Position numbers and translations under genes: made by a program. From the NCBI GenBank assembly GCA_026196575.1, contig JAPHSX010000046.1, forward strand, positions 24,270-88,269: a stretch of DNA of 64,000 bases, read 5' to 3'. Of the stretch, positions 25,814 through 40,611 are shown one piece after another (within the stretch, counting starts at the first letter, position 1; each line of letters starts with the position of its first letter). The DNA is from Gammaproteobacteria bacterium (GTDB lineage Bacteria > Pseudomonadota > Gammaproteobacteria > Thiohalomonadales > Thiohalomonadaceae). Under the pieces are notes generated by a model. That model was not told the origin of the DNA. It ran no database searches and was given only the letters and a program-made list of their open reading frames with translations.

Positions 25814-25912
25814 CAGTACCGCGTGTACTGACGGCGGCAGGCAGGGATGCACCATTCCCTGCCTGACCGCTACACCCAATTCCGTTACATCCAGTTCGGC
25901 GAAGGAGTGAAG

Positions 25913-27661
25913 ATGTCTACCAGCGTGAACAGCCTGCGTAAGTTACTAAATCGCAAAGTTATCATGGGTGCCACCGCCGGTGCCGCGCTCTTCTTTATGC
26001 TGATGGGTGTGATCTTCTGGGGCGGTTTTAACACCGCCATGGAAGCGACAAATACCCTGGATTTTTGTATCTCCTGTCACGAGATGGAGAACAATGTCTA
26101 CCAGGAGTACAAAAAGACCATCCACTTTGCCAATCGCAGCGGGGTCAGGGCCACCTGTTCCGACTGCCATGTGCCACGCGACTGGACACACAAGGTCATC
26201 CGCAAGATCCAGGCTAGCGGTGAGGTCTTCCACAAGGTGATGGGCAGCGTCGACACCCCGGAGAAGTTCGACAACAAACGCCTCACCCTGGCCAAACGGG
26301 TCTGGAACACAATGAAGTCGACCGACTCCCGGGAGTGCCGCAACTGCCACGACTTTGGCTCAATGGATCCCGCCGATCAGAAGCCGCGTGCCCGCAAGCA
26401 GCACTTTAATGCGATGAAGAGTGGCCAGACCTGCATTGACTGCCACAAGGGGATCGCCCACACCAAGGTCAGCGACCGTCTCACCGATCAGGATGCCGAA
26501 CAGCTGGAAAAGCCGAACCCCTCGCTGATCAAACCGATCCCGGTACAGTGGCAAGCCTTCTTTGATGGCAACGGCGACAGCGCCAGCGACGCCGAACCTG
26601 CGGCTGCCGCCACGCCACAGGAGAGCGCCGCCGAGGACGAGCCCTCCCCCGCCGCCAGTCCGGCACCAGCACCAGCCCCCGTCACCTCGACAGGCGCCGG
26701 CGTTGACAGCGGTATCGACTGGGCCAAGGCCCCCACCACCGAGATCACCATTTTCTACCCCGGCCAGGCCTCGATGGAGTGGGTACTTAACGGGCGGGAT
26801 CACGGTGGCGCCCGCCCCCTCAACGCCGGCGACCGCTGCTTTGACTGTCACGGCGAAGAGGCTGCCGATATGGGAGAGAAGATCGTCAGCGGCGAGAAGC
26901 TTGAACCGCAGCCGATCGTCGGCAAACGCGGCAGCATTGCGGTCGCGGTACAGGCCACCCACGATAACGACTATCTCTACATGCGTTTCCTCTGGGACGA
27001 CACCCCGCATGTCGCGGTACCCTTTGTCGAAAGCGGCAAGATGGATGCACAAAACCCGAGCAAGCTGGCAATGATGCTGGCCAGCGATGATATCGAGTAT
27101 GCCGACCGTTCCGGCTGCTGGATCACCTGCCACAATGACATGAAGGGGATGCCCGATGCGCCACCCGCCGAGGTACTGGCGGGAAATGCCCACGCCAAGG
27201 AGCTCAACTGGGCGAGCGGCGTCACCAAATACCTGCCGGAGAGCCGCACCGAGATGGAGATCAAGGGCGGCAGCGACAAGCCGCGCGGTGGTTGGGACAA
27301 GCTCAAGGAGAGCAGCGAGATCCAGAGCGAGCTGGAGGCAGGGCATTACCTCGACCTGGTGCGCTACAAGATCGGCGAAGGACTCAGCGAGAACGGCCAC
27401 GTCCTTGATTCACGTCACATGGATGGGGGCGAGGGCGCCGAGTTCAGCGGCGGCCTGAGCAACGGCCAATGGGCAGTGGTGATGCGGCGCAAGCTCAGCA
27501 CCGAACAGCCGGGTGACATCAGTCTGGCGACCGATCAGCTCTACAACCTGGGCTTCGCCATTCACGACGACCACAGCGCCGGTCGCTTCCACCACGTCTC
27601 CCTGGGCTACAAACTGGGGTTCGATAACGACGAGGCCGAGATCAACGCCGTCAAACAGTAA
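25913..27661 (+). CDS. NapC/NirT-type tetraheme cytochrome fused to a C-terminal ethylbenzene dehydrogenase-like heme-binding domain
   Basis: Start at MSTSVNSLRKLLNRK. N-terminal TM plus four CxxCH (CISCH, CSDCH, CRNCH, CIDCH), Ala/Pro-rich linker, then CFDCH, CWITCH (CX3CH) and EB_dh-like beta domain (WDDTPHVAVPF...LGFAIHDDHSAGRFHHVSLGYKLGF). Confidence 0.85.
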   Translation: MSTSVNSLRKLLNRKVIMGATAGAALFFMLMGVIFWGGFNTAMEATNTLDFCISCHEMENNVYQEYKKTIHFANRSGVRATCSDCHVPRDWTHKVIRKIQASGEVFHKVMGSVDTPEKFDNKRLTLAKRVWNTMKSTDSRECRNCHDFGSMDPADQKPRARKQHFNAMKSGQTCIDCHKGIAHTKVSDRLTDQDAEQLEKPNPSLIKPIPVQWQAFFDGNGDSASDAEPAAAATPQESAAEDEPSPAASPAPAPAPVTSTGAGVDSGIDWAKAPTTEITIFYPGQASMEWVLNGRDHGGARPLNAGDRCFDCHGEEAADMGEKIVSGEKLEPQPIVGKRGSIAVAVQATHDNDYLYMRFLWDDTPHVAVPFVESGKMDAQNPSKLAMMLASDDIEYADRSGCWITCHNDMKGMPDAPPAEVLAGNAHAKELNWASGVTKYLPESRTEMEIKGGSDKPRGGWDKLKESSEIQSELEAGHYLDLVRYKIGEGLSENGHVLDSRHMDGGEGAEFSGGLSNGQWAVVMRRKLSTEQPGDISLATDQLYNLGFAIHDDHSAGRFHHVSLGYKLGFDNDEAEINAVKQ

Positions 27662-34408: not shown

Positions 34409-34456
34409 TGGGAGCTTACTCTATCGCCGGGGCATCGGCCGTCCGTGATTCATTCA

Positions 34457-34873
34457 TCAAGCCAAAATCACGTTCACTGCGGCGGCAACCGCGATACCCA
34501 CGGCGATACCGGCGGCAATTTCCAATCGGGTATGGCCCATGCGTTCGCGCAACACCTGATGGTCAGAGGCTTCCACTGCCAACTTGTTGATGGCCACCGC
34601 ATGCTTTCCCACCTCCCGGCGTAGACTGTTGGCATCGAGCATTACAATAAAGGCCAGCGTAATGGCGACACCGAAGGCAGGATGTCCGATACCCTCCTTG
34701 AGGGCAATGAGCGCGGCCATGCTACTGACAATCGCGCTGTGGTTACTAGGCAACCCACCATAACCGATGAGGTTGAACGCAAATTGCCTGGCTTTGACGC
34801 TGTTGATGATGAACTTCGAAACGCCAGCAACGAGCCAGGCCAAAAATGGTGTCAGGGCATAGGAGAAGTCCAT
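34457..34873 (-). CDS. Divergent PAP2 family (YuiD/DUF212) membrane phosphatase-like protein; candidate DPPR phosphatase
   Basis: Start set at MDFSYALTPFLAWLVAGVSKF; YGGLPSNHSAIVSSMAALIALKEGI...MLDANSLRREVGKHAVAINKL...GHTRLEIAAGIAVGI. Confidence 0.82.
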   Translation of the reverse strand: MDFSYALTPFLAWLVAGVSKFIINSVKARQFAFNLIGYGGLPSNHSAIVSSMAALIALKEGIGHPAFGVAITLAFIVMLDANSLRREVGKHAVAINKLAVEASDHQVLRERMGHTRLEIAAGIAVGIAVAAAVNVILA

Positions 34874-34875
34874 GA

Positions 34876-35760
34876 TCACCCCTGTACCGGCCACAATGCC
34901 CAGCCACAAGCGGCCACCCACAGCGCCACGGCAAGCAACAACTGCCAGTCAGCCAGCAGCGCATCGGTGGGCGACTCGCCGTCGTCAAGGGCTTCCACCA
35001 CGAACCAGTAGCGGAACAGGCCAAACAAAACCAACGGTACCGTAATGACCAGTTCAGGCTTGGCCGACATCACAAACATGCTGTAGAAAAGCAGTGCCCC
35101 GGTTGCGGACATCTCTGCATAGCGATCTACCAGCGCGACAGAATACTTCTCAAGCACCTTGCGGCCCTCGGTGCCGTTTTGGCTGAGTTCCTGGCGCCGT
35201 TTTACAGCGGCCAGGTACAGCGCCAGGCAAAGGGTCGTGATGAACATCCATGAGGAGACGGGCACGCCCAGCGCCATGGCACCTGCATAGACGCGCAGGA
35301 CAAAACCGATGGCGATGGTGAAGATATCGACCACAGGCTGATGCTTGAGCACAAACGTGTAGGCCAGGTTCAGCACCAGATAGGCCGCGATAACCATCAC
35401 CACCTTTGGAGCAACAAACCAGCCCCATGCCAGCACGGCGTAGAGACAGGCGAGCAGAAGCAGGGCGACGGGTAGCGAGACGATCCCGGCCGCCAGGGGG
35501 CGGGTTCTGGACTTTCCGGGGTGACGACGGTCACGCTCGATGTCGTGCATGTCGTTGATGATGTAGGTCGCCGACGAGGCGACGCAGAACAGCAACATGG
35601 CCAACAGGGCATGACTGACAGCGTCAACATCCAGAAACGCCCCGGAAAACATCAGCGGAGCCAGTACAAATCCGTTCTTGACCCACTGCTTTGGTCGCAT
35701 CAGCCGGATTAACCCAAGCATCTGCGCTAGAGGCGAGCGAACCATTACGGTATCATGCAT
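34876..35760 (-). CDS. UbiA-family polyprenyl-phosphate phosphoribosyltransferase (DPPR synthase-like, Rv3806c family)
   Basis: 294 aa; LIRLMRPKQWVKNGFVLAPLMF, YIINDMHDIERDRRHPGKSRTRPLAAGIVSLP, VDIFTIAIGFVLRVYAGAMALGVPVSSWMF. Confidence 0.88.
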   Translation of the reverse strand: MHDTVMVRSPLAQMLGLIRLMRPKQWVKNGFVLAPLMFSGAFLDVDAVSHALLAMLLFCVASSATYIINDMHDIERDRRHPGKSRTRPLAAGIVSLPVALLLLACLYAVLAWGWFVAPKVVMVIAAYLVLNLAYTFVLKHQPVVDIFTIAIGFVLRVYAGAMALGVPVSSWMFITTLCLALYLAAVKRRQELSQNGTEGRKVLEKYSVALVDRYAEMSATGALLFYSMFVMSAKPELVITVPLVLFGLFRYWFVVEALDDGESPTDALLADWQLLLAVALWVAACGWALWPVQG

Positions 35761-35788
35761 TATGTTTGTACCTCGGTGATGTCATTGA

Positions 35789-36202
35789 ATGCTTGTCTCG
35801 ACCAAGCTGGCGATTAACTACGTCATTCTCGCACTAATCGCAACTGCGGCAAACATCGGCGCCCAGGACCTTGTCATCCATGTCTACAGCGGCGCCTTCG
35901 ACATCCTGGCCTCGGTCATGGCGGGCACTGGAGTCGGGCTTGTGGTCAAATACATCCTCGACAAGCGCTACATCTTCCACTTTCGTGCGCACAGCGTCGC
36001 CCACGACACCCAGACCTTCGCCCTCTACACCGTCATGGGCCTGGCCACAACCGTAGTCTTCTGGGGTTTCGAGTTTGGCTTTCACTACCTCTTTGGAACC
36101 AGGGAAATGCGTTATCTCGGCGGCATTATTGGTCTTGGCCTCGGTTATCTGATGAAGTATCACCTCGATAAACGCTACGTCTTCCGCGCGGGGGCCCAAT
36201 GA
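35789..36202 (+). CDS. GtrA-family membrane protein (Rv3789-like)
   Basis: 137 aa; four TM helices; VGLVVKYILDKRYIFHF and GLGYLMKYHLDKRYVF typical GtrA motifs. Confidence 0.85.
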   Translation: MLVSTKLAINYVILALIATAANIGAQDLVIHVYSGAFDILASVMAGTGVGLVVKYILDKRYIFHFRAHSVAHDTQTFALYTVMGLATTVVFWGFEFGFHYLFGTREMRYLGGIIGLGLGYLMKYHLDKRYVFRAGAQ

Positions 36203-37500
36203 GACAGGTTACCGCGTGGGGGCGCCTGAGCGCCAGTCCTCATCATGTCATCAACCTGAATGATCCATCCACAGCCAGGTATCTTATTTGTCATGGTATT
36301 CATCCAGGCCTGGCCCACGGCATGGGACGCAGCTACGGTGACGTCTGCCTGAATCCGGAGGGCACACTCTGGGTCACAACCGGGCTCGACCATTTCATCG
36401 CTTTCGACGACTGCACTGGCCGCCTGGCGTGTGAGGCTGGAGTGCTGCTGCGGGACATCCAGCGGCTGGTCATTCCACGCGGCTGGATTCTGCCAGTGAC
36501 ACCGGGTACTCAACTGGTGACCGTTGGGGGAGCCATCGCCAACGATGTGCACGGCAAGAACCATCACGTACTGGGCTCTTTCGGCGATCACGTACAGAGC
36601 CTCACCCTCATTCGCACCGATGGAGAAGTCATCCAGTGCGGCCCGAATGAGCAGCCAGATTGGTTTGCCGCCACTGTCGGAGGATTGGGCCTGACGGGGG
36701 TGATCACACAGGCCGAGATCCAATTGCTCCGTGTGGCTGGACCATGGCTGGAGACCGAGACCGTTCCCTATGCCAACCTGGACGAGTTCTTCCGGCTGGC
36801 GGATGATTCCGAGGCCGAGTGGGAGCACACAGTGTCGTGGATCGATTGCATCTCGGGGGGAGGCGGGCGCGGCTTGTTCCTGCGGGGCAACCCGGCCGAT
36901 GTGGGAGAACAACCGGAGCCCGTGGGGCATAAACTGACCATGCCGATTGTGCCTCCCGTTTCGCTGGTCAATCGGCTTTCACTTCGCCTCTTCAATACAG
37001 CCTACTACCATCTTAAAAAATGGCAGGCAGGACGGACTATCACGCACTACGAACCGTTTTTCTATCCCCTGGATAACCTGTTGGAGTGGAACCGAATGTA
37101 CGGGCCGAAGGGTTTCTTTCAGTATCAAAGCGTGGTACCGCGCGATGTCGGGCAAGATGCGGTTCAGGCCATGCTCAAAGAGATCGCCCGTTCCGGTGAT
37201 GGTTCGTTCCTCGCCGTCCTGAAGACCTTTGGAAACCGCCAGTCAATCGGGATGCTGAGTTTTCCGCAGCCTGGCGTCACCTTGGCGCTGGATTTCCCCA
37301 ATCATGGGGATCGCACGCACAAACTTTTCGAGCGCCTGGATGCCATCGTGCATGAGGCTAAGGGCCGCATCTATCCGGCCAAGGATGCGCGAATGCCCAG
37401 AGAACTCTTCGAGGCGGGCTATCCACGCCTGGCTGAATTCATAAAATACCGGGACCCGGGCATCAGCTCCGGTCTCTCACGCCGCTTGATGGGAAGTTGA
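36199..37500 (+). CDS. DprE1-like FAD-dependent decaprenylphosphoryl-ribose 2'-oxidase
   Basis: 433 aa; GMGRSYGDVCLN, LPVTPGTQLVTVGGAIANDVHGKNHHVLGSFGDHVQSLTLIRTDG, GRIYPAKDARMPRELFEAGYPRLAEFIKYRDP: matches DprE1 landmarks (HGKNHH, AKD(S/A)R). Confidence 0.92.
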   Translation: MRQVTAWGRLSASPHHVINLNDPSTARYLICHGIHPGLAHGMGRSYGDVCLNPEGTLWVTTGLDHFIAFDDCTGRLACEAGVLLRDIQRLVIPRGWILPVTPGTQLVTVGGAIANDVHGKNHHVLGSFGDHVQSLTLIRTDGEVIQCGPNEQPDWFAATVGGLGLTGVITQAEIQLLRVAGPWLETETVPYANLDEFFRLADDSEAEWEHTVSWIDCISGGGGRGLFLRGNPADVGEQPEPVGHKLTMPIVPPVSLVNRLSLRLFNTAYYHLKKWQAGRTITHYEPFFYPLDNLLEWNRMYGPKGFFQYQSVVPRDVGQDAVQAMLKEIARSGDGSFLAVLKTFGNRQSIGMLSFPQPGVTLALDFPNHGDRTHKLFERLDAIVHEAKGRIYPAKDARMPRELFEAGYPRLAEFIKYRDPGISSGLSRRLMGS

Positions 37501-38253
37501 ATGAACAACAAAAAAAGAATCGTCATTATTGGCGCCACCTCGGCAATCGCCGAGCAGTGCGCCAGATTGTGGGTGCAAAACCAGCCGGCCGATCTGACTC
37601 TGGTGGGCCGCGATGCCCAGCGCATTGAGCGGGTTGCAACTGACCTAAAGGTCCGTAGCCCTCAATCCGAAATTCGGGTCGTCCAGGCTGAGTTTCTGGA
37701 TCCCGATGCCATAAACGCCACTGTTGTGAATATCGTCAAATCAGGTCACGTCGACATCGTCCTGATTGCGCATGGGTCGCTGCCCGAGCAGACCGAGTGC
37801 CAGAACGACCTTCAGTCTTGCCGCGACACACTGGAGATCAACGGAGTATCACCCGTCCTCTATGCCGAGGCCTTTGCCAAAGAGATGGAAAAAGCCAACC
37901 ACGGCACCATTGCCCTGATTGGCTCCGTGGCTGGCGACAGGGGGCGCAAGTCCAACTATGTCTACGGTGCAGCCAAAGGACTGGTTACGCGCTACGCCCA
38001 AGGATTGCAGCACCGTTTTGCGGGTTGCGGAGTCAAGGTGGTGCTTATCAAGCCTGGGCCGACTGATACCCCGATGACGGCTCACCTGAAGGGCAAGGGT
38101 GCCAAGCTCGCGCCTGTTGAGGGTGTGGCAAAACAGATTGTTGAGGGCGTGGAATCGGGTAAGCCGGTCATCTACGTGCCTGGGAAGTGGCGGTTAATTA
38201 TGATGGTTATTCGAACCCTACCTGCGTTCGTTTTTAACAAAATGGAAATTTAA
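37501..38253 (+). CDS. DprE2-like short-chain dehydrogenase (decaprenylphosphoryl-2-keto-ribose reductase)
   Basis: 250 aa; GATSAIAEQCARLWVQ, GSVAGDRGRKSNYVYGAAKGLVTRYAQGLQHRF (YxxxK), KPGPTDTPMT; abuts dprE1-like stop. Confidence 0.9.
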   Translation: MNNKKRIVIIGATSAIAEQCARLWVQNQPADLTLVGRDAQRIERVATDLKVRSPQSEIRVVQAEFLDPDAINATVVNIVKSGHVDIVLIAHGSLPEQTECQNDLQSCRDTLEINGVSPVLYAEAFAKEMEKANHGTIALIGSVAGDRGRKSNYVYGAAKGLVTRYAQGLQHRFAGCGVKVVLIKPGPTDTPMTAHLKGKGAKLAPVEGVAKQIVEGVESGKPVIYVPGKWRLIMMVIRTLPAFVFNKMEI

Positions 38254-38328
38254 GATAGCCTCGATGACCGCGGACGCGGATTTAGAACGCCTGAAGAGGT
38301 TTATACTGAAATGGCGCTAGCTGCGTGA
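38254..38328 (+). pseudogene. Remnant of a transposase/integrase C-terminus (IS3-like)
   Basis: Frame gat agc ctc gat gac cgc... tga translates DSLDDRGRGFRTPEEVYTEMALAA*, resembling rve-transposase tails (...SLDDRTPDEVY...); no start or catalytic core present. Confidence 0.4.
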
Positions 38329-38372
38329 ACCGGTGTGACGCACTTATGACTAAAATCCGCGGAATCCGACCC

Positions 38373-40349
38373 ATGAAGAATAAAAGCAATCTCGTAATCC
38401 TTGCTTTGCTAATTATAAGTATGGCGAATATCTTTGCCTCCTATTTGGCAGGGCATTCATTTCACAGTTATCTTTTTAATTCCGACGCCCTTTATCTGCC
38501 AACGTTGTTTTCTGATTTGTTTTCAAATGGAGGCAACATTTCTGATTGGTATCTTACTCCTGCACCATACTTTTTTCCTGACTACATTCTCTTTTTTCTG
38601 GCTTACTTGCTTGGGCCGAGTACGTATAGTCAAGTTGCCATTTTTTCTATAGCGCAACCTGTATTAACTTTTTTCGCAATTTGGTTTCTTGTTAATCAGG
38701 CTTCAAAATCAGGAGGGTTTAAATGTGCTGCCACTGCATCGATTGGGCTGGTTTGGCTTGCCTTAAACTATGATGAGCTATTTAGCCTATCACTTAGCAG
38801 GGCACATCACTATAACGAGACATTTGTTTTTTTTCTTACTAGCGCGCATCATTATGGCATTTTTTTATCTTCAATAGTTTTTGTCGCACTATGGATTCGC
38901 CATGAAAACAAAAAAGAAAAATCGATCAAGTCCATATTGTTTTTGACAATATCCATATTAGCCTTCCTGTCAGCGCTCTCAGATAACCTCTTTATCGTTC
39001 AGACCATGCTTCCATTCGTGGCCACAGCAATCCTTGCAGATATTGCAACCAGAGACTTCTCAGTTAAAAAGGCATTTCTCGCGCTAATTCCTGTATTCTT
39101 TGGTGTATCCGGGTCTGCTTCCTATGAATTGTTCGTTGAAAACGTTACGCGCCATCCTGTCAAGATCGGGGTGGAGAATGCATTCCATAATCTAAATGAC
39201 ATTTACACGATTTTTCACACTGGCATATTAAAAAACCCAATCTATGATGTTTTGTTTGTCATTTATCTTGGGGTGGTTATTTATTCTTGTTATAGCCTAA
39301 TTAAGAAGTCGTCCGCCAGAGGTGCTCCAAGACGACTAGCTTGGCTTGCTTTATTTTCTTTTCTGTCATTTTGCTCGACGCTTGTTGCAGTGATATTGAT
39401 TACCGACATTACAGTCACTACTAGGTATTTTATTCCATTATTTTCTTGGCCTGTTATAATTGTCACCTTATTTTTGAGTCATTATTTTTGTCGGCAATTT
39501 TTCATTATCTCAATAACCATCTCAGTGCTGGCCGTCATCTCTCTTAGCTTTGGCACAACTAAACTCATAAGAACAACCGGATTGAGCGATCGTTACTACC
39601 CAAATAAAATAGCCTGTATCGATGATGCGCTTGAGGAAGCAAGAGTTGTCAATGGGATTGGCCAGTATTGGGATGCTAAATATATCAAAAACTTTAGCAA
39701 GCTTAACTTAAATATTGCACAATACTCTGAAAACCTGGGAGAGATGCGCTGGATTACTTCAAAAAAATACTTTAAACAAAGCTACGGCTTCGCAATTATT
39801 TCAGAAAAAGCTGAGCCGCCATACAAGATATCTACCGAAGAACTATTGCGCATAAACGGCACTCCTGAGAGGGTAGTGAAATGTGGCGATAAGTCACTCT
39901 ACATATATGGAAAACAAAAGCTGCGTACTAGAAAGATAGTAAACGCAGGGGATTTCTACCAATGGAAGGCTTGTGAACTTCCCTCGGTAATTGGTAAAAA
40001 AGCCTCTGAATGTGAGATGCAAAAGAAGGATGTCTCACAATCCGGTTACGTTACATTTGGCCCTTATGAGCAGTTACCATCAGGGCGATACGCTTTCGAG
40101 ATCGCCTACTCAAGTGCCGAAAAAACGAAAGATACCGCGGGTGATTGGGATGTAGTGCTTGCCATTCCCAATGAATCCGAGATATTAAAAAATGGCCCAC
40201 TTGCAGGTACCGATGGCACAATCGTAAAAATCAAAGGTGAATTTACCCTGCATGCTAACCGAAACATGGAAAAAATTGAGATCAGAACACTAGCCCACCA
40301 AGACATGGAACTTAAAGTAAGTTACATCAAAGTTACTCGGGTAGAATAA
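38373..40349 (+). CDS. AT-rich multi-TM GT-C-like membrane protein, candidate arabinofuranosyltransferase (function unassigned)
   Basis: ORF 38325-40349 (alternative starts 38325, 38346, 38373). About 11-12 hydrophobic segments, acidic motif FNSDALYLPTLFSDLF in the first loop, C-terminal soluble beta-rich domain (SGYVTFGPYEQLPSGRYAFEIAYSS). Visibly AT-rich versus flanks. Confidence 0.7.
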   Translation: MKNKSNLVILALLIISMANIFASYLAGHSFHSYLFNSDALYLPTLFSDLFSNGGNISDWYLTPAPYFFPDYILFFLAYLLGPSTYSQVAIFSIAQPVLTFFAIWFLVNQASKSGGFKCAATASIGLVWLALNYDELFSLSLSRAHHYNETFVFFLTSAHHYGIFLSSIVFVALWIRHENKKEKSIKSILFLTISILAFLSALSDNLFIVQTMLPFVATAILADIATRDFSVKKAFLALIPVFFGVSGSASYELFVENVTRHPVKIGVENAFHNLNDIYTIFHTGILKNPIYDVLFVIYLGVVIYSCYSLIKKSSARGAPRRLAWLALFSFLSFCSTLVAVILITDITVTTRYFIPLFSWPVIIVTLFLSHYFCRQFFIISITISVLAVISLSFGTTKLIRTTGLSDRYYPNKIACIDDALEEARVVNGIGQYWDAKYIKNFSKLNLNIAQYSENLGEMRWITSKKYFKQSYGFAIISEKAEPPYKISTEELLRINGTPERVVKCGDKSLYIYGKQKLRTRKIVNAGDFYQWKACELPSVIGKKASECEMQKKDVSQSGYVTFGPYEQLPSGRYAFEIAYSSAEKTKDTAGDWDVVLAIPNESEILKNGPLAGTDGTIVKIKGEFTLHANRNMEKIEIRTLAHQDMELKVSYIKVTRVE

Positions 40350-40410
40350 ATTATGCGATCTATTCTACAGAGTAGACTTGAACTCGGAAGTTTTTTCTAG
40401 ACAAATATAG

Positions 40411-40590
40411 GAGACCCCCCAGCTCTGCTGGGGAGGCATTAGCAGTTTGGCAAATCCGGGAATCTCATAAGAGTAGATCAGCTAAATCTGGTGTAATCGT
40501 TGCCCCCTTGGGGGGCTCAAGGAGCGAATGCTCCGCTTAGGCCGCTTCGAGCGGCTCACAAATTAAAGCCCCCGGCTTTGCCGGGGGGAT
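40411..40590. repeat. Dense cluster of GC-rich hairpins; candidate IS200/IS605-type non-autonomous remnant
   Basis: Five perfect short palindromes: ccccagc-tct-gctgggg (40417-40433), gccccc..gggggc (40502-40516), ggagc-gaat-gctcc (40521-40534), gccgct-tcg-agcggc (40541-40555), cccccggc-ttt-gccggggg (40569-40587). Confidence 0.55.
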
Positions 40591-40611
40591 ACTTACTGTC
40601 CGCCGTAACGG

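Follow-up and report, generated by a model that had tools for sequence, protein, structure and literature searches.

D-arabinofuranose (D-Araf), whose synthesis is a drug target, is usually regarded as a sugar of mycobacteria. Using a 64,000-nucleotide stretch of a gammaproteobacterial genome of the family Thiohalomonadaceae (contig JAPHSX010000046.1, positions 24,270 to 88,269; hereafter the window), we analyzed a cassette at positions 34457-40349, in which PAP2 and UbiA genes are divergent from GtrA, DprE1 and DprE2 genes followed by a sixth open reading frame (ORF). An earlier reading of the same DNA, made from its letters only (the sequence-only reading), had proposed that the first five genes provide a D-arabinose donor. 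These five (34457-38253) are intact ORFs at the place it had given and match the families it had named in Pfam and NCBIfam; the motifs that it cited, among them NDxxDxxxDRxHPxK and VKNGF for UbiA, are found in the sequence. The genes nirS, nirF, nirDLGH, nirJ and nirN, named here by family and order, adjoin the cassette directly upstream, and the host is therefore likely to be a denitrifier, which fits the earlier description.

Table 1. Features of the cassette and of its borders (window coordinates)
Feature	Position	Strand	Evidence
DUF212 divergent PAP2 phosphatase, candidate polyprenyl-P-ribose-5-phosphate 5'-phosphatase	34457..34921	-	PF02681, 113.7 bits; 86% identical in Microbulbifer cassette
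UbiA-family polyprenyl-phosphate phosphoribosyltransferase (PPPRS/DPPRS-like), NDxxDxxxDRxHPxK	34876..35760	-	PF01040; NF008978, 216.1 bits (cut-off 207); 36% identity to PDB 8j8j
GtrA-family candidate flippase for polyprenyl-P-Araf	35789..36202	+	NF037976, 185.2 bits (cut-off 50); PF04138
DprE1-like FAD oxidase (2-oxidation of polyprenyl-P-ribofuranose)	36199..37500	+	FAD_binding_4; NF053785, 361 bits; 41% identity to M. tuberculosis DprE1
DprE2-like short-chain dehydrogenase/reductase (SDR)	37501..38253	+	SDR; PRK07102, NF053786; 29% identity to M. tuberculosis DprE2
Integral membrane protein, 658 aa, candidate C-type glycosyltransferase (GT-C) for arabinose	38373..40349	+	11 transmembrane (TM) helices; last cassette gene in two hosts; G+C content (GC) 40%
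C-terminal periplasmic jelly-roll domain of the candidate transferase, carbohydrate-binding module (CBM)-like	39915..40346	+	AlphaFold2, Foldseek
Left junction of inserted cassette, after nirN	34409..34456	.	Empty-site comparison with genomes G008, G013, G014, G016
Right junction of inserted cassette, before Crp/Fnr-type regulator gene	40350..40611	.	Same four-relative empty-site comparison

The donor enzymes were identified by comparison with curated family models and solved structures. The UbiA protein passes its model and narrowly misses the sister model NF008977 (225.6 versus 234 bits), and its NDxxDxxxD motif is present in the alignment to 8j8j, a decaprenyl-phosphate phosphoribosyltransferase; the GtrA protein belongs to its family by a wide score. 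The closest solved relative of the DprE1-like protein is M. tuberculosis DprE1 (E 1.5e-74; 412 aligned positions), and that of the DprE2-like protein is M. tuberculosis DprE2 (E 4.3e-28; 21gq_C, 101.6 bits versus 63.7 for the next); the identities given in Table 1 for these two proteins and for UbiA were read from printed alignments. The structure and profile comparison suggested in the sequence-only reading thus ends at the mycobacterial decaprenylphosphoryl-phosphoribose synthase, DprE1 and DprE2, all three leading the next family by a wide margin, and places neither UbiA nor the DprE pair among unrelated proteins. The DprE1 residues H132, K134, Y60, Q334, Q336, K367 and K418 are kept, while Y314 is replaced by Phe, N385 by Thr and C387 by Ala, the last being the residue bound by benzothiazinones in M. 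tuberculosis. The SDR triad Ser142-Tyr155-Lys159 of DprE2 is kept as well. By homology, each step from phosphoribosyl pyrophosphate (PRPP) to polyprenyl-P-D-Araf has a candidate gene, as had been claimed, and the presence of an encoded donor pathway is well supported at the sequence level.

The term “mycobacterial-type”, also used in the earlier description, holds in part. The inferred reaction sequence is the same as in the M. tuberculosis pathway (Rv3789-3791, Rv3806c-3807c), and the synthase, oxidase, reductase and GtrA-family protein are homologous; however, the identities are 29-41%, the phosphatase is a DUF212 protein, Cys387 of DprE1 is changed to Ala, the lipid carrier is presumably undecaprenyl phosphate, and no Emb/Aft-like transferase was found in the cassette.

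Comparative evidence indicates that the cassette is a laterally acquired, self-contained unit. All six genes recur in Microbulbifer variabilis in unchanged order, orientation and divergent layout, with identities to the window of 86% for PAP2, 88% for UbiA, 77% for GtrA, 84% for DprE1, 81% for DprE2 and 52% for the sixth protein. In the DprE1 tree, the window and Microbulbifer sequences are joined with support of 100/99, and those of the host's own family and genus are placed elsewhere. The corresponding site is empty in four members of the host family, in which nirN and the Crp-type gene are adjacent, with no cassette between them. The host genome has a single DprE1 match; the versions in its DprE1-bearing relatives are more distant (40-56% identity) and mostly sit in a cluster with another gene arrangement. 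No target-site duplication was found at the cassette ends. Two families are tied to Microbulbifer through one flank gene, and DprE1 was detected in 5/180 and 1/21 of their members, never above 48% identity; it should be noted that Microbulbifer may lie outside both. A phage origin was considered and rejected, with no match to DprE1 or the sixth protein in phage records and none to the sixth protein in viral contigs. At the end of its contig, the Microbulbifer cassette is followed by a short ORF (locus L026, 12007-12108) that resembles, by eye, the start of an IS3-type transposase.

The sixth ORF opens at a GTG at 38325, and the ATG at 38373 is the probable start. Its product has no Pfam or NCBIfam family match. 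The predicted topology includes 11 TM helices with the N-terminus inside and the C-terminus outside, and Lys plus Arg account for 13 of 45 residues in cytoplasmic loops versus 5 of 117 in short periplasmic loops; the helices were placed by eye from a low-confidence model. Invariant positions in an alignment of seven sequences include D38, D48, W59, P63, P65, D70, H160, S203, Y352, C415 and D417, and in the predicted topology most of the conserved positions face the periplasm (D38, D48, W59, D70, Y352, C415, D417), acidic ones in the first periplasmic loop among them. The C-terminal 144 residues were modeled by AlphaFold2 as a jelly roll (mean pLDDT 66.7; 70-86 for the last 100 residues), for which the best Foldseek matches are mostly CBMs, including CBM6, CBM4, CBM16 and CBM35 (E about 1e-4 to 1e-3, TM-score about 0.4-0.57), although other beta-sandwich folds score similarly; in this model, the domain resembles a CBM and is putatively carbohydrate-binding.

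Besides Microbulbifer, relatives of the sixth protein occur in two genomes of one genus (26-29% identity), in genome G039, on Leptospira interrogans replicons and in Azospirillum brasilense. The protein probably belongs to a new transferase family, which is unnamed in the libraries searched. In the sample of the host's class, four of the five genomes with this family also have DprE1 (Fisher P 0.005); counted per genus, with the window left out, the association has P 0.11. In genomes G049 and G193, the homologues are part of glycan-assembly loci and adjoin an ABC-2 permease-like gene (assigned by eye), with DprE1 elsewhere in the same genomes. Genome G311 has a broken copy, split by stops (L093, 339-1914), and intact UbiA (67%), DprE1 and DprE2 genes elsewhere (L094). 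In Leptospira interrogans, the homologue (about 26%) adjoins an MBOAT acyltransferase gene (L077, 11980-13545; L078, 7917-9482).

The sixth gene appears to have a history of its own. Between the window and M. variabilis, the five donor genes have dN of 0.07-0.15 and dS of 0.5-1.2 (dS of 0.7-1.2 with NG86, with dN of 0.07-0.13), a pattern indicative of purifying selection, whereas the sixth gene has dN of 0.39 and saturated dS. Its GC is 40% in the window and 39% in Microbulbifer, compared to 55-59% and 49-55%, respectively, for the other cassette genes. The candidate transferase gene would thus either evolve much faster or have been swapped by another family member after the donor module moved, and its greater divergence suggests independent exchange, as in O-antigen seroconversion. 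A late stray insertion of an AT-rich gene is ruled out by its equally AT-rich counterpart in Microbulbifer. A mosaic was also observed in genome G005 (L013), in which PAP2, UbiA and GtrA are 57-65% identical and DprE1 and DprE2 only 42-45%; a gene for a PMT_2 protein is located between those for GtrA and DprE1. A bolder proposal is that the protein encoded at 38373-40349, with its 11 TM helices and CBM and its Leptospira and Azospirillum homologues, founds a new family of lipid-linked D-arabinofuranosyltransferases, and that the cassette acts as a seroconversion kit, in which a fixed mobile donor module is combined with a transferase that is swapped separately to suit the host polysaccharide; we advance it tentatively, at somewhat worse than even odds. 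The sequence-only reading had named no acceptor enzyme, although the candidate gene lies inside the range it covered; it overlooked the sixth gene, the lateral acquisition and the greater divergence of the transferase.

Taken together, these data lead us to propose, with a probability of about 0.6, that lateral transfer brought this locus to the host as a self-contained cassette for D-arabinofuranosylation, which decorates a periplasmic glycan. Gene content, family membership, kept catalytic residues, lateral acquisition and the CBM-like domain are read from sequence; the reactions, the direction of flipping, the identity of the transferase, the acceptor and the linkage are inferred. UbiA would make a lipid-linked pentofuranose from PRPP, the DUF212/PAP2 protein would remove the 5-phosphate, and DprE1 with DprE2 would invert C2 to yield polyprenyl-P-D-Araf; GtrA may then aid its transfer to the periplasm, where the sixth protein, as a GT-C-type enzyme with a carbohydrate-binding C-terminal domain, would place D-Araf on the glycan. 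As acceptor, an O-polysaccharide or a different exported polysaccharide is most likely; a polysaccharide is favored by the CBM-like domain and by the position of the two homologues in glycan loci, beside an ABC-2 permease-like gene. A PF04932 protein of the O-antigen ligase/polymerase type is encoded in a different glycan locus of the host.

Several results weigh against this proposal. Both oxidoreductases score under their equivalog cut-offs: DprE1 reaches 361 of the required 500 bits for NF053785 (the next best family has 48 bits), and DprE2 reaches 168.9 versus 250 bits for NF053786, its best family being PRK07102 (250.8 bits versus a cut-off of 267). No sequence or profile match ties the sixth protein to a known GT-C family; its family profile has no match among solved structures and no similarity to the PMT_2 transferases of relatives, and the full-length AlphaFold2 model, built from two sequences, has pLDDT of 40.8 and does not confirm a GT-C fold. 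Because of this, the candidate assignment as a GT-C arabinosyltransferase with a polysaccharide acceptor is based on topology and context. G039 has a homologue of the sixth gene and no DprE1 match, and for Leptospira and Azospirillum the co-occurrence with DprE1 covers one replicon each. There are no glycan genes adjoining the cassette in the window, and the acceptor is not readable from context.

The sixth protein could instead be a passenger or another glycan-assembly factor, with a different GT-C in the genome using the donor. Its deviating GC, the absence of a known GT-C family match and the homologues located away from DprE1 clusters are consistent with this explanation, which we nevertheless consider unlikely, given that the gene closes the cassette in both hosts, following DprE2 by 1 nt in Microbulbifer, that its conserved residues point mostly to the periplasm, and that same-family relatives with a D-Araf cluster carry a PMT_2-type, GT-C-like protein at a comparable position, adjoining DprE1.

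It is also conceivable, albeit quite improbable, that the donor is made as described and serves a type IV pilin, with the pilin transferase encoded elsewhere, as is the case for P. paraeruginosa TfpW. Pilin arabinosylation is the best-studied Gram-negative use of D-Araf (PMC12369383, PMC11841053), and the pilA gene of the host is followed by a gene for a TM-rich protein of 637 aa with weak TPR matches, possibly a GT-C. However, this pilA lies on another contig (L084, 5968-9303; genome G000, C4), so that the cassette, unlike tfpW, is not beside it, and a GT2 polyprenyl-phosphate-sugar synthase-like gene of its own (with matches of AglJ/dolichyl-P-hexose type) comes after the membrane protein gene. 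The pilA-linked protein therefore probably uses another donor, and these genes are a candidate separate pilin glycosylation module; moreover, the cassette has its own transferase candidate with a CBM-like domain, a pairing kept in Microbulbifer. A product other than polyprenyl-P-D-Araf, either another pentose or ribose if the DprE pair acts on a different substrate, would agree with the scores under the equivalog thresholds and with the existence of ribose and xylose three-component systems, but is quite improbable considering the kept lysines, histidine and glutamines of DprE1, the kept triad of DprE2, and the association of DprE1/E2 homologues with Araf systems as opposed to that of a different epimerase (ORF13) with Xylf systems (Kelly et al. 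2024, PMC11127046).

The proposed D-arabinofuranosylation cassette is comparable to several known systems. The GT136 three-component systems of Citrobacter youngae O1/O2 include a UbiA-type polyprenyl phosphoribose synthase acting from PRPP, an optional epimerase, a flippase and an 11-TM GT-C with a C-terminal CBM, located at 503-652 in the founder, ORF12; DprE1/E2 homologues are predicted for Araf versions (PMC11127046). In the cassette, the synthase and the flippase are recognized by homology, and the candidate GT-C only by topology and context; with its predicted 11 TM helices and CBM-like C-terminus, it follows the overall layout published for ORF12. The phosphatase is a separate DUF212/PAP2 protein, whereas that of C. 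youngae is a fused HAD domain, and the flippase candidate is GtrA rather than MATE. Compared to the published description of ORF12, the candidate transferase shows an Asp in the first loop together with an R-Y pair and lacks the D-x-x-E-Y implied by the ORF12 residue numbers. PSPA7_6245-6251 of P. paraeruginosa PA7/Pa5196 is likewise a D-Araf donor cluster of a Gram-negative bacterium; it includes UbiA and a separate phosphatase of non-HAD type and is located on a genomic island (PMC12369383). The transferase there, TfpW, acts on pilin and has its gene at the pilin locus, in contrast to the transferase candidate with a CBM-like domain inside the cassette. The gtrABC cassettes for O-antigen glucosylation are similarly compact, laterally moving donor-flippase-transferase sets with an exchangeable last gene, but use a GtrB-made hexose instead of a lipid-linked pentofuranose made from PRPP by UbiA.

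The exceptional status that the sequence-only reading gave to the locus is not borne out. DprE1-like genes (E <= 1e-60) are present in 68 of the 369 sampled genomes of the host's class (57 of 272 genera), so the central surprise of that reading is reduced, and other Gram-negative systems have been published, namely pilin arabinosylation by PSPA7_6245-6251 with TfpW (PMC12369383) and three-component pentofuranose systems, those with Araf having DprE1/E2 homologues (Kelly et al. 2024, PMC11127046). Instead, the locus appears to represent a known kind of donor pathway, well supported as such, in a new and laterally acquired arrangement with a probable new transferase family. The D-Araf donor pathway is thus common in one proteobacterial class, the window provides a clean case in which an entire arabinosylation kit has entered a site known in its empty form, and the analysis singles out one specific transferase family, so far uncharacterised; if confirmed, this family would provide a new arabinosyltransferase for glycoengineering and help to predict D-Ara-bearing glycans.

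DprE1-like genes were also found on 63 plasmid records (E <= 1e-30), many of them rhizobial. The neighborhoods of the best DprE1 matches repeatedly contain UbiA, in some cases fused to an extra domain, together with a flippase-like gene and membrane proteins of various kinds. An LPG_synthase_TM flippase-like protein (PF03706, TIGR00374) is encoded directly behind PAP2 in Microbulbifer (L026, 5218-6195), and similar proteins, identified by similarity, occur near the DprE1 loci L018, L020, L060, L062, L064 and L066; it is possibly an alternative flippase for the lipid-linked pentose. A recurring variant (L081, L067, L072) combines UbiA, DprE1, DprE2, NAD-dependent epimerase-like, NAD(P)/FAD oxidoreductase-like and GtrA-like genes; the L081 copy is on a conjugative plasmid, Agrobacterium salinitolerans pDG3-1a, and in L067, where a contig end is nearby, UbiA was not seen. 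In genome G306 (L058, 7902-15871), PAP2-UbiA is divergent from DprE1, and an ORF of 1138 aa, resembling by eye a nonribosomal peptide synthetase adenylation domain, separates DprE1 from DprE2 together with two further ORFs. Finally, a single ORF at 25847-27661 of the window, adjoining the cytochrome cd1 nitrite reductase gene, joins a NapC/NirT-type cytochrome c to an ethylbenzene-dehydrogenase-like heme domain (PF03264 and PF09459).

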